From: Micromonospora fulviviridis
GTDB taxonomy: Bacteria; Actinomycetota; Actinomycetes; Mycobacteriales; Micromonosporaceae
Assembly (NCBI RefSeq): GCF_014648395.1
Contig: NZ_BMRA01000003.1
Coordinates: forward strand, 1-37,440
Length of the DNA: 37,440 nucleotides
Direction of reading: 5' to 3'
Below, one piece after another: positions 29,431 to 32,282 of the stretch. The translations under genes were made by a program, and so were the position numbers. The notes below the pieces were generated by a model. The model made no database searches. It saw nothing but the letters and a program-made list of their open reading frames with translations, and had not been told where the DNA came from. The number at the start of each line of letters is the position of its first letter. Within the stretch, counting starts at the first letter, position 1.

Positions 29431-30486
29431 GTGGACTACGGTTTGCCGGTGACCGCACCGCCCCTCGACCCGCCGCACGGCGCCGCCGATCCGGTGGCCG
29501 CCGCCGAGCTGGCCGCCGAGGTCGACGGCGTGGTGCCCGCCGACCCGGCCACCGTCGAGGAGACCAGCGGCTTCACCGTCCGGCTGGACAACTTCACCGG
29601 CCCGTTCGACCTGCTGCTCCAGCTCATCAGCAAGCACAAGCTGGACGTCACCGAGGTGGCCCTGCACAAGGTCACCGACGAGTTCATCGCGTACCTCCGG
29701 GCCATGGGCGACCAGTGGGACCTGGACGAGACCAGCGAGTTCCTGCTCGTCGCCGCCACGCTGCTGGACCTGAAGGCGGCCCGGCTGCTGCCCGCCGCCG
29801 AGGTGGAGGACGAGGAGGACCTGGCCCTGCTGGAGGCCCGGGACCTGCTCTTCGCCCGGCTGTTGCAGTACAAGGCGTACAAGGAGGCGGCGGCGCACAT
29901 CGCCGAGCTGGAGTCGGTCGGCGGGCGGCGCTACCCCCGCGCGGTCACCCTGGAACCCCGGTACGCCGAGGCCCTGCCCGACCTGGTGCTCGGCATCGGC
30001 CCGGAGCGGCTGCTCAAGCTCGCGCTCAAGGCGATGACCCCGAAGCCGGTGCCCGAGGTGTCCATCGCGCACGTGCACATGGTCCGGGTCAGCGTCCGGG
30101 AGCACGCGGAGATCATCTCCGAGCGGCTGCGCCGCGCCGGCACCGCCAGCTTCTCGCTGCTCTGCGCCGACTGCGAGATCACCCTGGAGGTGGTGGCCCG
30201 CTTCCTGGCGCTGCTGGAGCTCTACCGGCAGGGGCTGGTCGCCTTCGTCCAGGAGCAGGCGCTGGAGGAGTTGACCGTGCGCTGGACCGGCTCCGCCGAC
30301 GGCGCCACCGAGCTGACCATCGACGAGTACGCCGGCTCCCCGGAGGTCACCCCGCCCACGCCTCGGGCGAACGAGGGAACGGCCGCGGCGGCGGGCGAGG
30401 CCGCGCCGGCACAGGGCGGGGCGGCGGACGAGGCCGCGTTGACACAGGCCGCGGTGGCGGACGACGCCGCGCCGACACAGGAGTGA
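29431..30486 (+). CDS. scpA: Segregation and condensation protein A (kleisin)
   Basis: GTG 29431 with AGGTG upstream is one possible start; GTG 29449 is an alternative, and both precede the conserved FTVRLDNFTGPFDLLLQLISKHKLDVTEV (about 48 onward). The predicted product has up to 351 residues. It shows the ScpA pattern: an N-terminal helical domain, a central linker (DEEDLALLEARDLLFARLLQYKAYKEAA), and a C-terminal winged helix (VVARFLALLELYRQGLVAFVQE). It bridges SMC and ScpB in the bacterial condensin. The last 50 residues are a variable Ala/Glu/Gln tail made partly of a 33-bp tandem repeat. scpB follows after 4 bases. Confidence 0.93.
   Translation: MDYGLPVTAPPLDPPHGAADPVAAAELAAEVDGVVPADPATVEETSGFTVRLDNFTGPFDLLLQLISKHKLDVTEVALHKVTDEFIAYLRAMGDQWDLDETSEFLLVAATLLDLKAARLLPAAEVEDEEDLALLEARDLLFARLLQYKAYKEAAAHIAELESVGGRRYPRAVTLEPRYAEALPDLVLGIGPERLLKLALKAMTPKPVPEVSIAHVHMVRVSVREHAEIISERLRRAGTASFSLLCADCEITLEVVARFLALLELYRQGLVAFVQEQALEELTVRWTGSADGATELTIDEYAGSPEVTPPTPRANEGTAAAAGEAAPAQGGAADEAALTQAAVADDAAPTQE
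30397..30482 (+). repeat. 33-bp tandem repeat at the 3' end of scpA
   Basis: Two full 33-base units (30397-30429 and 30430-30462) and a partial third (30463-30482) encode EAAPAQGGAAD-like repeats. The unit is in frame. It lies in the variable C-terminal tail, after the conserved winged helix. Confidence 0.7.
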
Positions 30487-30490
30487 CCCG

Positions 30491-31525
30491 ATGAGCGACG
30501 AGGAACGCCGCGACTCGCTGGCCGACCAGGCCGCCGCCTGGATCCCCCCGTGGGAGCGCCCGACCCCGCCGAAGCCCACCGACAGCGAGACACCGGCCGA
30601 GCCTGAGCCGGCCGCCGGTGCCGAGCCAGAGATCTTGGACACTTACCGTTCGTCTCGAACGGAAACTCTCCAAGATCCGGTGGGGGAGAGCGCGGCGGAG
30701 CCGGCGGTCGAGCCGGAGGCGGCACCCGGAGCGGGGGAGCCCGCCCCCGGCGTCGACGAGGCGGTCGACCTCGACGCCCTGGCCGGGGCCGACTCCGGCG
30801 TCGGCGGGCCGGCTGGTCTTGCCGCCCCGTCCGGCGAGCCCGCAGACTCCGGTGTCGGCGGTCCGGCGGGCCGTGACACCTCGTCCGGCGAGCCGGAGGG
30901 GGAGGGTGGCGCGGACGGCGTACCCGGCAAGCGGGGACGGCGGCGCGCGGCGCCCGTGCCGGAGCCCGCGCCCGTGCTCGACGACGCCGAGCTGCGCGGC
31001 GCGCTGGAGGCCATCCTGCTGGTGGTGGACCAGCCGGTCAGCGAGCTGACCCTGGCCCAGGTCCTGGAGCAGTCCCCGGAGCGGATCGGCCCGATGCTCG
31101 ACGAGATCGCGGCCGGCTACACGGCCGCCGGGCACGGCTTCGAGCTGCGCCGGGCCGCGGGTGGCTGGCGTCTCTACACCCGCCCGGAATACGCGACCTA
31201 CGTCGAGCGGTTCGTGCTGGAGGGCCAGTCGGTGCGGCTGACCCAGGCCGCGCTGGAGACCCTCGCGGTGATCGCCTACAAGCAGCCCGTGACCCGGTCG
31301 CGGATCTCCGCCATCCGGGGTGTCAACTGCGACGGCGTGATCCGTACGCTGGTCTCCCGGGGCCTGGTCGAGGAGTGCGGCACCGAAGCGGACAGCGGGG
31401 CCTTCCTCTACCGGACCACCACGATGTTCCTGGAGAAGCTGGGGCTGAACTCGGTGGACGACCTGCCGCCCCTGGCCCCTTTCCTCCCCGACGACGTAGA
31501 AGAGCTTGCCGATGCGACGCGATGA
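30491..31525 (+). CDS. scpB: Segregation and condensation protein B with long disordered N-terminus
   Basis: ATG 30491 has AGGAG 7 bases upstream. The product has 344 residues, against roughly 180-250 for most ScpB. The conserved winged-helix dimer starts near residue 165 (ELRGALEAILLVVDQPVSELTLAQVLEQ) and runs through ALETLAVIAYKQPVTRSRISAIRGVNCDGVIRTL to FLEKLGL. The first 160 residues are Pro/Ala/Glu-rich. They contain an 18-residue tandem repeat and a palindromic DNA insert (30631-30677) read in frame as ILDTYRSSRTETLQD. ScpB binds ScpA in the SMC complex. rluB starts before its stop, so the genes are translationally linked. Confidence 0.92.
   Translation: MSDEERRDSLADQAAAWIPPWERPTPPKPTDSETPAEPEPAAGAEPEILDTYRSSRTETLQDPVGESAAEPAVEPEAAPGAGEPAPGVDEAVDLDALAGADSGVGGPAGLAAPSGEPADSGVGGPAGRDTSSGEPEGEGGADGVPGKRGRRRAAPVPEPAPVLDDAELRGALEAILLVVDQPVSELTLAQVLEQSPERIGPMLDEIAAGYTAAGHGFELRRAAGGWRLYTRPEYATYVERFVLEGQSVRLTQAALETLAVIAYKQPVTRSRISAIRGVNCDGVIRTLVSRGLVEECGTEADSGAFLYRTTTMFLEKLGLNSVDDLPPLAPFLPDDVEELADATR
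30631..30677. repeat. 47-bp imperfect palindrome inside scpB
   Basis: GATCTTGGA (30631-30639) pairs with TCCAAGATC (30669-30677), and inside it CCGTTCG (30646-30652) pairs with CGAACGG (30656-30662). The TTA/AAA parts between the arms pair partly. It is clearly lower in GC than the flanking sequence. The layout resembles a dispersed palindromic element that landed in the disordered part of ScpB without breaking the frame. Only one copy is in this window. Confidence 0.8.
30788..30895 (+). repeat. 54-bp tandem duplication in scpB
   Basis: Two 54-base units (30788-30841 and 30842-30895) encode ADSGVGGPAG followed by LAAPSGEP or RDTSSGEP. The duplication is in frame, so it lengthens the disordered N-terminus by 18 residues. 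Confidence 0.85.
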
Positions 31526-32282
31526 CCGTGCCCCGAAGACCGACGCCCCCGTGTACGAGGGCGCCGAGCGCCTCCAGAAGGTGCTCGCCGCCGCGGGGGT
31601 GGGATCGCGGCGCGCCTGCGAGGACCTGATCTTCCGGCGCCGGGTCACCGTCAACGGCCGGGTCGCCCAGCTCGGCGACAAGGCGGACCCGGCGCACGAC
31701 GTCATCCACGTCGACGGCGAGCGGCTCCAGGCCGACGTCCGCCTGGTCTACGTGGCCATGAACAAGCCGCGCGGGGTGGTCACCACCATGGCCGACGAGA
31801 AGGGCCGCACCGAGCTCGCCGACTTCATCGGCGCGCGGCTGGAGCAGCGGGTCTACCACGTCGGGCGGCTCGACGCCGACAGCGAGGGCCTGCTCCTGCT
31901 CACCAACGACGGCACCCTCGCCCACAAGCTCATGCACCCGTCGTACGAGGTGCTCAAGACCTACCTCGCCGAGGTGGCGGGGCCGATCCCGCGCAACCTG
32001 GGCAAGCAGCTGGTGGCCGGCGTCGAGCTGGAGGACGGGCCGGTGAAGGTCGACTCCTTCAAGGTGGTCGGCACACTGGGTAAAACCGCCCAGGTGGAGC
32101 TGACCCTGCACGAGGGGCGCAAGCACATCGTCCGGCGCCTGATGGCCGAGATGGGACACCCGGTGTCCCGGCTGATCCGTACCTCGATCGGTCCGATCAA
32201 GCTCGGCGACCTGCGCACCGGGCGGCTCCGGCGGCTGACCAACGCGGAGGTCGCCGCCCTGTTCAAGGCGGTTGGTGACTGA
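31512..32282 (+). CDS. rluB: 23S rRNA pseudouridine synthase, RluB/RsuA family
   Basis: ATG 31512 overlaps the scpB end by 14 bases, with GAAGAG upstream. An in-frame TTG lies 6 bases earlier. The 256-residue protein has an N-terminal S4 domain (ERLQKVLAAAGVGSRRACEDLI, then RRVTVNGRVAQLGDKADP) and the RsuA/RluB/E/F synthase domain. The landmarks are NKPRGVVTT, the catalytic Asp in VGRLDADSEGLLLLTNDG, and GRKHIVRRLMAEMGHPVSRLIRTSIG. It should form a pseudouridine in domain V of 23S rRNA. The same scpAB-rluB-cmk-der order occurs in mycobacteria. Confidence 0.93.
   Translation: MRRDDRAPKTDAPVYEGAERLQKVLAAAGVGSRRACEDLIFRRRVTVNGRVAQLGDKADPAHDVIHVDGERLQADVRLVYVAMNKPRGVVTTMADEKGRTELADFIGARLEQRVYHVGRLDADSEGLLLLTNDGTLAHKLMHPSYEVLKTYLAEVAGPIPRNLGKQLVAGVELEDGPVKVDSFKVVGTLGKTAQVELTLHEGRKHIVRRLMAEMGHPVSRLIRTSIGPIKLGDLRTGRLRRLTNAEVAALFKAVGD

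Follow-up and report, generated by a model that had tools for sequence, protein, structure and literature searches.

The 47 bases at positions 30631 to 30677 of a 37,440-nucleotide stretch of Micromonospora fulviviridis DNA (the window, by which the whole of the analysed stretch is meant) form a palindrome that recurs throughout the genome and is read in frame within scpB. They are probably a copy of a dispersed repeat, here called family A. Its translation within ScpB is predicted, and the copy most likely goes back to a REP-like unit copied in trans in an ancestor that several Micromonospora species share; we infer its mobility from dispersal and copy number. In-frame palindromic repeats are already known from Rickettsia, as are intragenic REPs and MITEs from a number of other bacteria. 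What is new here concerns a sister family, B, whose ends are frozen at synonymous positions in ScpB despite varying amino acids. The features of the scpB region are as follows.

29431..30486, + strand: scpA (segregation/condensation protein A), the upstream neighbour.
30491..31525, + strand: scpB, SMC-Scp complex subunit ScpB, 344 aa; variable linker at about residues 25–160, conserved domain from about residue 165.
30631..30677, 47 nt: family A palindromic element inside scpB; the unit is common to 36 other places in the genome, of which 26 were printed alongside it and have unrelated flanks.
30631..30638, + strand: left end octamer GATCTTGG, common to families A and B.
30632..30676, + strand: ScpB codons 48–62, predicted to be translated as ILDTYRSSRTETLQD; the frame is identical in 17/17 ScpB linkers that hold A.
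30646..30662, + strand: family A core CCGTTCG-TCT-CGAACGG, including the 3-nt loop.
30670..30677, + strand: right end octamer CCAAGATC, the inverted copy of the left end.
31506..32282, + strand: downstream ORF, which we take to be pseudouridine synthase-like (RluB-type); no element was found in it.

The two arms of the element (30631–30652 and 30656–30677) are 22 nt each, are 86% complementary and enclose a 3-nt loop. With 23 G or C (49%), the unit lies in GC-rich surroundings, and its computed RNA fold reaches −21.5 kcal/mol, compared with −7.9 for shuffled sequences (z −5.7). The sequence-only reading had described a 47-base in-frame palindrome of lower GC content in ScpB; this is confirmed, and the palindrome is real. 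Its first base is the third position of codon 47. Family A has the general layout GATCTTGG-ACAGTTN-CCGTTCG-NNN-mirror. Family B is 48 nt long and has the same 8-nt ends, with a core of the form GGCCCC...GGGGCC. Elsewhere in the window, no other element with GATCTTGG-type ends was found.

The host ORF is identified as ScpB by TIGR00281 (115.9 bits; cut-off 89.2). A crude gene finder based on codon usage placed its start at 30680, directly past the element. The start is taken as 30491 because relatives conserve the terminus MSDEERRDSLADQAAAWxPPW upstream of the element and in frame. At the other end of the gene (window ~31494–31525), where the next gene starts, certain rare codons, CTT and GAT among them, are nearly frozen across species; they appear to be those of the ScpB C-terminus.

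Further copies, which the sequence-only reading had suspected in this family, proved to be numerous. In the 6.98 Mb genome of M. fulviviridis, blastn with the element and its flanks located 27 distinct places (43 rows, both strands); the window copy and the 26 others align without gaps over 47 nt, while their flanks are unrelated. A covariance model built from these 27 aligned copies finds 37 distinct places at E ≤ 0.1 and 35 at E ≤ 0.001. On each strand of this genome there are 27 matches to the exact-ended pattern GATCTTGG-N15-45-CCAAGATC and 0 to the reversed control; 19 of the 27 belong to family A and 8 to family B. Arms of family A occur in pairs only; a search of the genome with 0–1 mismatch found no solitary arm that might mark a parent insertion sequence. 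In 362 kb of loci from the same genome, chosen for holding copies, the octamer GATCTTGG was counted 66 times inside elements and 15 times outside them, where 7 were expected; with the word so little spread outside elements, a reading as a DNA uptake sequence is unsupported.

Two other kinds of sequence were observed beside A copies. A third GATC-ended palindrome of ~57 nt, GATCATGA(G/T)GTTGGC...GCCAAC..CATGATC, is present in three copies, each within ~130 nt to the left of an A copy (L019, L023 and L028, on contigs C15, C4 and C5 of this genome). At about positions 87–125 of locus L013, also left of an A copy, there is a terminator-like hairpin, GGCCGGCACCCC...GGGGTGCCGGCC, which in five relatives turns up often as a dispersed sequence in its own right.

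Most copies lie between genes. According to the gene finder, 2/37 A copies of this genome are contained entirely within a predicted gene and 3 run across a gene end. When scpB is included manually, the figures become 3 wholly inside genes, 3 overlapping ends and 31 intergenic; the 8 B copies all lie between genes. A sample drawn from G146 and further genomes (handles beginning with G denote genomes, those with L loci) had 1/26 A and 0/21 B copies wholly in a gene and one of each overlapping a gene end; this sample was drawn from the top of score lists and lacks the G146 scpB copy, and its pairing and intergenic bias are not fair estimates. The orientation of neighbouring genes was considered for 34 copies of the M. 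fulviviridis genome in gaps of at least 60 nt, the scpB copy being left out. Divergent gaps held 4 of the 34, compared with 12.4 expected by length (binomial 0.001), convergent gaps 9 (5.6 expected; 0.10) and co-directional gaps 21 (15.9 expected).

Avoidance of divergent gaps, together with the surplus in convergent ones, is what might be seen if the copies were transcription terminators or mRNA 3′ ends, with the scpB copy as a read-through or attenuating hairpin. Perfect copies would indeed be very stable as RNA (−37.7 kcal/mol for A and −43.2 kcal/mol for B by RNA folding). We nevertheless consider this explanation unlikely. The printed copies have no T run after the stem, a terminator has no need of frozen ends, and one inside scpB would cut the gene's own mRNA; Rfam gave no match in four loci.

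Covariation within the arms bears on the same question, and points in both directions. For A, it is 0.113 compared with 0.075 for shuffles (0/500 as high), although two of five measures are not above shuffles (129 and 309 of 500). For a mixed B set it is 0.159 against 0.100 (0/500), two measures again not exceeding shuffles (335 and 144 of 500), and 0.117 is still reached after a one-column slide. For 27 B copies from places other than ScpB it is 0.118 against 0.045, with all measures at 0/500, but 18 or 19 of these copies were picked from lists that pairing-rewarding models had ranked. The eight B copies of M. fulviviridis, which were found by their ends alone, show no covariation in the middle block (48% paired, 52% shuffled). 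In ScpB, middle-block pairing is 40% for B (32% shuffled, 0/500) and 60% for A (57%, 42/500). When five copies of this genome were aligned across species, two had paired arm changes and the others erosion. The imperfect cells in the 27 B copies outside ScpB comprise 50 unpaired and 4 G-U, which hints at DNA rather than RNA.

Within scpB, the element can be followed through relatives, which are mostly Micromonospora. The set comprises 99 loci, of which 85 have a complete linker and 76 are distinct (14 incomplete, 9 duplicates); it was assembled from at least 69 loci of one scan and the best 30 of 160 genomes, is not a random sample and leans to relatives of M. fulviviridis, so that the figures below are counts and not prevalences. 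An element was accepted at ≥27 of 42 consensus bases for A and ≥22 of 30 for B. On this basis, A is present in 17 of the 76 distinct linkers, B in 37, both in 5 and at least two B in 14, while 27 have neither; four weak A matches (28–32 of 42) are counted in the 17. The segment is therefore held by some orthologues and absent from others. G016, for example, lacks A at the place where its relative G014 has it, some A copies have altered ends, and some linkers carry three elements, such as L134 (G132) with A and two B. The linker of L145 (G024) also contains a long Pro-Ala-Asp run beside its A element.

Codon shuffles of the linkers (1520 in number) reached a maximum of 25 for A and 21 for B and never attained the cut-offs. 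A chance palindrome in ordinary ScpB sequence, for which nothing but the low complexity of the linker speaks, is hardly credible and was rejected: dozens of copies exist elsewhere, the printed ones with unrelated flanks, the reversed control has no matches, and the shuffles stay below the cut-offs.

Each family keeps a single reading frame in ScpB. All 17 A elements are read as ILDTYRSxxTETVQDP and all 51 B elements as DLGxxxPLEGPxxSKI, which speaks for few old insertions followed by inheritance, decay and loss. As a copy common to several species, the one in scpB is not a fresh insertion.

Two further genes hold the element. One M. fulviviridis copy (C1:252250) lies in an MFS transporter gene (PF07690), in a variable loop near the middle of the protein. 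Among 30 orthologous loci, this one included, six have A at the same alignment position, one (G093) has it at another loop position and 23 have none; all 7 copies are read in the ILD frame, as in ScpB. In the MFS gene of L160 (G014), a stop appears in the reading ahead of the A element. The third coding copy is in a 637-aa ORF without a Pfam match; it uses a different open frame (DLGHFPFAANDNCPRS) and is also present in G016, G044 and G146. With in-frame copies in at least two unrelated genes and mostly intergenic copies otherwise, the earlier suggestion of protein-coding invasion by a non-coding repeat in an actinobacterium is supported, translation being predicted.

Both families conserve their ends and core, with 7–8 variable nt in between. 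The ends of the B copies in ScpB behave differently from the middle. Their Asp codon is GAT in 48/48 cases and their Leu codon CTT in 41/41, against linker backgrounds of 15% and 2.6%. Where the second residue is not Leu, the third base is T in 9/10, and codon 6 ends in G in 51/51 despite a varying residue. As a yardstick, the ScpB domains of the 37 B carriers were compared pair by pair: of the codons that specify the same residue, a median of 24% have different third bases. In that domain, a single codon is used in 1/22 conserved Leu columns and in 6/8 conserved Asp columns (one of them GAT); since so many Asp columns are also single-codon, the GAT result alone is weak, and CTT carries the weight. 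When B was found by its core alone, 34 of 45 matches had 15–16 of the 16 end bases, 4 had 12–14 and 7 had 10 or fewer.

Because third bases are frozen while residues vary, the constraint on B ends in ScpB looks to be at the nucleotide level and does not fit a dead passenger; frozen ends are not what is expected of a neutral one. With ends and core conserved rather than the peptide, it is most likely that the ScpB B copies continue to serve as DNA sites. The freeze may alternatively be due to recent re-insertion or to conversion among copies.

These observations also lend themselves to an explanation in which the palindromes are binding sites of a chromosomal DNA-binding protein (a nucleoid or segregation factor), with selection for the site driving both dispersal and retention, and scpB carrying one to three sites in a tolerant linker. 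We regard this as possible, albeit doubtful. The conservation of ends and core around a variable spacer suits it, as do the synonymous freeze of B ends, even in copies found by core alone, and the excess of unpaired over G-U cells. On the other hand, 39 of 160 genomes of the genus have no A match at E ≤ 0.001, which makes an A site dispensable; intergenic copies with changed ends exist in relatives; the octamer by itself is little spread outside elements; and the single-codon Asp columns weaken the GAT argument, CTT being the stronger. We know of no protein for such a palindromic site. More tentative still is the broader proposal that the GATCTTGG palindromes constitute a living chromosomal site system of the Micromonosporaceae, in which a putative protein would read the 8-nt ends and the core as DNA. 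Across much of the genus scpB would then have carried one to three such sites, the price of keeping the DNA word being rare codons and a peptide that changes.

A function of the peptide itself, as a linear motif of ScpB kept by selection, is very improbable. The motif ILDTYRSxxTETVQDP does stand out in a variable linker and is always in one frame, and the third-position share of variation is higher in ScpB than in intergenic copies for A (0.33 vs 0.27; 6/500 reshuffles as high) and higher for the B2 subset (0.45 vs 0.41; 0/500), in comparisons that ignore relatedness. However, 0.33 is the value without codon bias, and the B1 subset behaves in the opposite way (0.34 vs 0.41; 458/500, relatedness again ignored). 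The three codon positions are much alike in the ScpB A copies (0.150, 0.136 and 0.142). The codon-position analysis used 13 ScpB and 30 intergenic A copies, without the four weak matches. Third bases of the end codons are frozen while residues change, and 27 of 76 linkers have neither element. There is no clear case of protein-level selection on the element peptide.

The preferred reading, a REP-like unit copied in trans, rests on dispersal and copy number, and clean insertions were looked for in several ways. No clean empty site was found among 20 joined flank pairs in five relatives, 23 loci compared by blastn and five aligned copies; where relatives lack a copy, the flanks are reshaped or eroded, and the same is seen for relatives' copies at the corresponding M. 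fulviviridis loci. Direct flank repeats of 1–10 nt are not in excess in 89 copies, and old copies may have been stripped of target duplications. The first base outside the unit is A in 1%, T in 49% and C in 30%. Inverted symmetry extends outward as 3-nt matches in 11/89 (4.9 expected) and 4-nt matches in 7/89 (1.6 expected), on account of which the true edges of the 47/48-nt units may lie a few bases further out in some copies. As 47 is not a multiple of three, an in-frame insertion needed a further small change, none of which was seen. A Y1 transposase (PF01797) was detected in 5/14 genomes at six loci, none with A or B within ~1.5 kb on each side. Mobilisation of the RAYT type was rejected since these loci lack copies and G122 and G145, both rich in A, gave no Y1 match.

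Family A is widespread. It was found at E ≤ 0.001 in 121/160 genomes of the genus; at E ≤ 1e-5 it is present in 136/354 genomes of the family Micromonosporaceae, made up of 113/160 within the genus and 23/194 outside it (9/43 other genera). Family B is about as widespread, with 147/354 genomes (120/160 and 27/194, the latter in 15/43 other genera). Per-genome copy numbers from the genus and family scans are lower bounds, to be read as "at least". With rows halved, the A copy numbers of eight relatives differ strongly, at 43 (G146), 41 (G014), 28 (G113), 21 (G016), ~21 (G045), 19 (G044) and 1 each in G137 and G023. The A place seen in G137 lies in the scpB region (locus L121), and in the tree of the scpB locus this genome is the sister of M. 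fulviviridis (92/88, below the mark for strong support). Either its other copies were lost, or they were never present, or the locus was moved by recombination. In collections that may omit records near the M. fulviviridis genome, phages gave no match to the window copy, viral contigs none to a 32-nt A pattern and plasmids none to one perfect A copy. No report of palindrome families A or B in Micromonospora or Micromonosporaceae was found among the open-licence papers listed.

Several known systems invite comparison. Rickettsia palindromic elements (RPEs) are described as palindromic repeat families found between genes and in frame inside unrelated protein genes, where they are read as an inserted peptide; they are 105–146 or ~150 nt long, and in R. 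conorii almost half of them are located in ORFs (PMC10969869, PMC2229807). Family A resembles them as a many-copy palindromic repeat in frame in unrelated genes (ScpB, MFS transporter). Unlike RPEs, A and B measure 47–48 nt rather than 105–150, have another sequence and occur in another phylum, with searches made within Micromonosporaceae; moreover, 3/37 A copies of this genome are wholly in genes, and the ends in ScpB are frozen at synonymous sites. The RPE-like behaviour claimed in the sequence-only reading thus holds for an in-frame repeat in unrelated genes, and membership of the RPE family does not, on grounds of length, sequence and host.

REPs, according to PMC3733652, are short multi-copy palindromes, mostly between co-directional or convergent genes and downstream of genes, some lying in genes, many of these for replication or repair; the main text has no mention of Micromonospora, Salinispora, Streptomyces, Frankia or actinobacteria. 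Family A is like REPs in this general sense, being a short palindrome in many copies, mainly extragenic and depleted from divergent gaps. It differs from GTAG/CGTC REPs in that A and B have GATCTTGG/CCAAGATC ends and a near-complete 22-bp stem, with no GTAG/CGTC foot and none in the outward flanks, and from RAYT-associated REPs in that no Y1 transposase lies beside A or B copies in 14 genomes. Bacterial MITEs (Correia/NEMIS, ERIC, RUP) are portrayed as non-autonomous and intergenic, with inverted ends and sometimes in-frame fusions (PMC2229807, PMC10969869). In contrast, no target-site duplication was seen in 89 copies of the palindromes, 5′-TA ends are lacking, and a solitary A arm that might mark a parent insertion sequence was not found in this genome. 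The suggestion of a mobile or REP-type repeat dispersed in the family accordingly stands as to dispersal, in Micromonosporaceae and at 37 places in this genome; mobility is deduced, and no clean insertion was seen.

Under the preferred reading, a putative trans-acting enzyme that recognises the GATCTTGG ends would copy the unit into places where it is tolerated, namely gene ends, disordered linkers and a variable transporter loop. Coding copies would survive where the frame used is stop-free through the palindrome and the host stretch is variable. After arrival, it would be the ends and the core, and not the peptide, that are conserved in the ScpB B copies.

In-frame invasion of genes by palindromic repeats is best known from Rickettsia; these findings add the high-GC actinobacteria. 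Species are found at different stages, with no element, one, two, three or decayed ones, which makes the birth and decay of repeat-derived protein segments traceable. The synonymous freeze in ScpB separates the keeping of a peptide from the keeping of a DNA word, two things that are usually confounded, and renders the choice between passenger and site testable. If the tentative site-system reading were true, the protein sequence of the ScpB linker would be a by-product of a DNA site.
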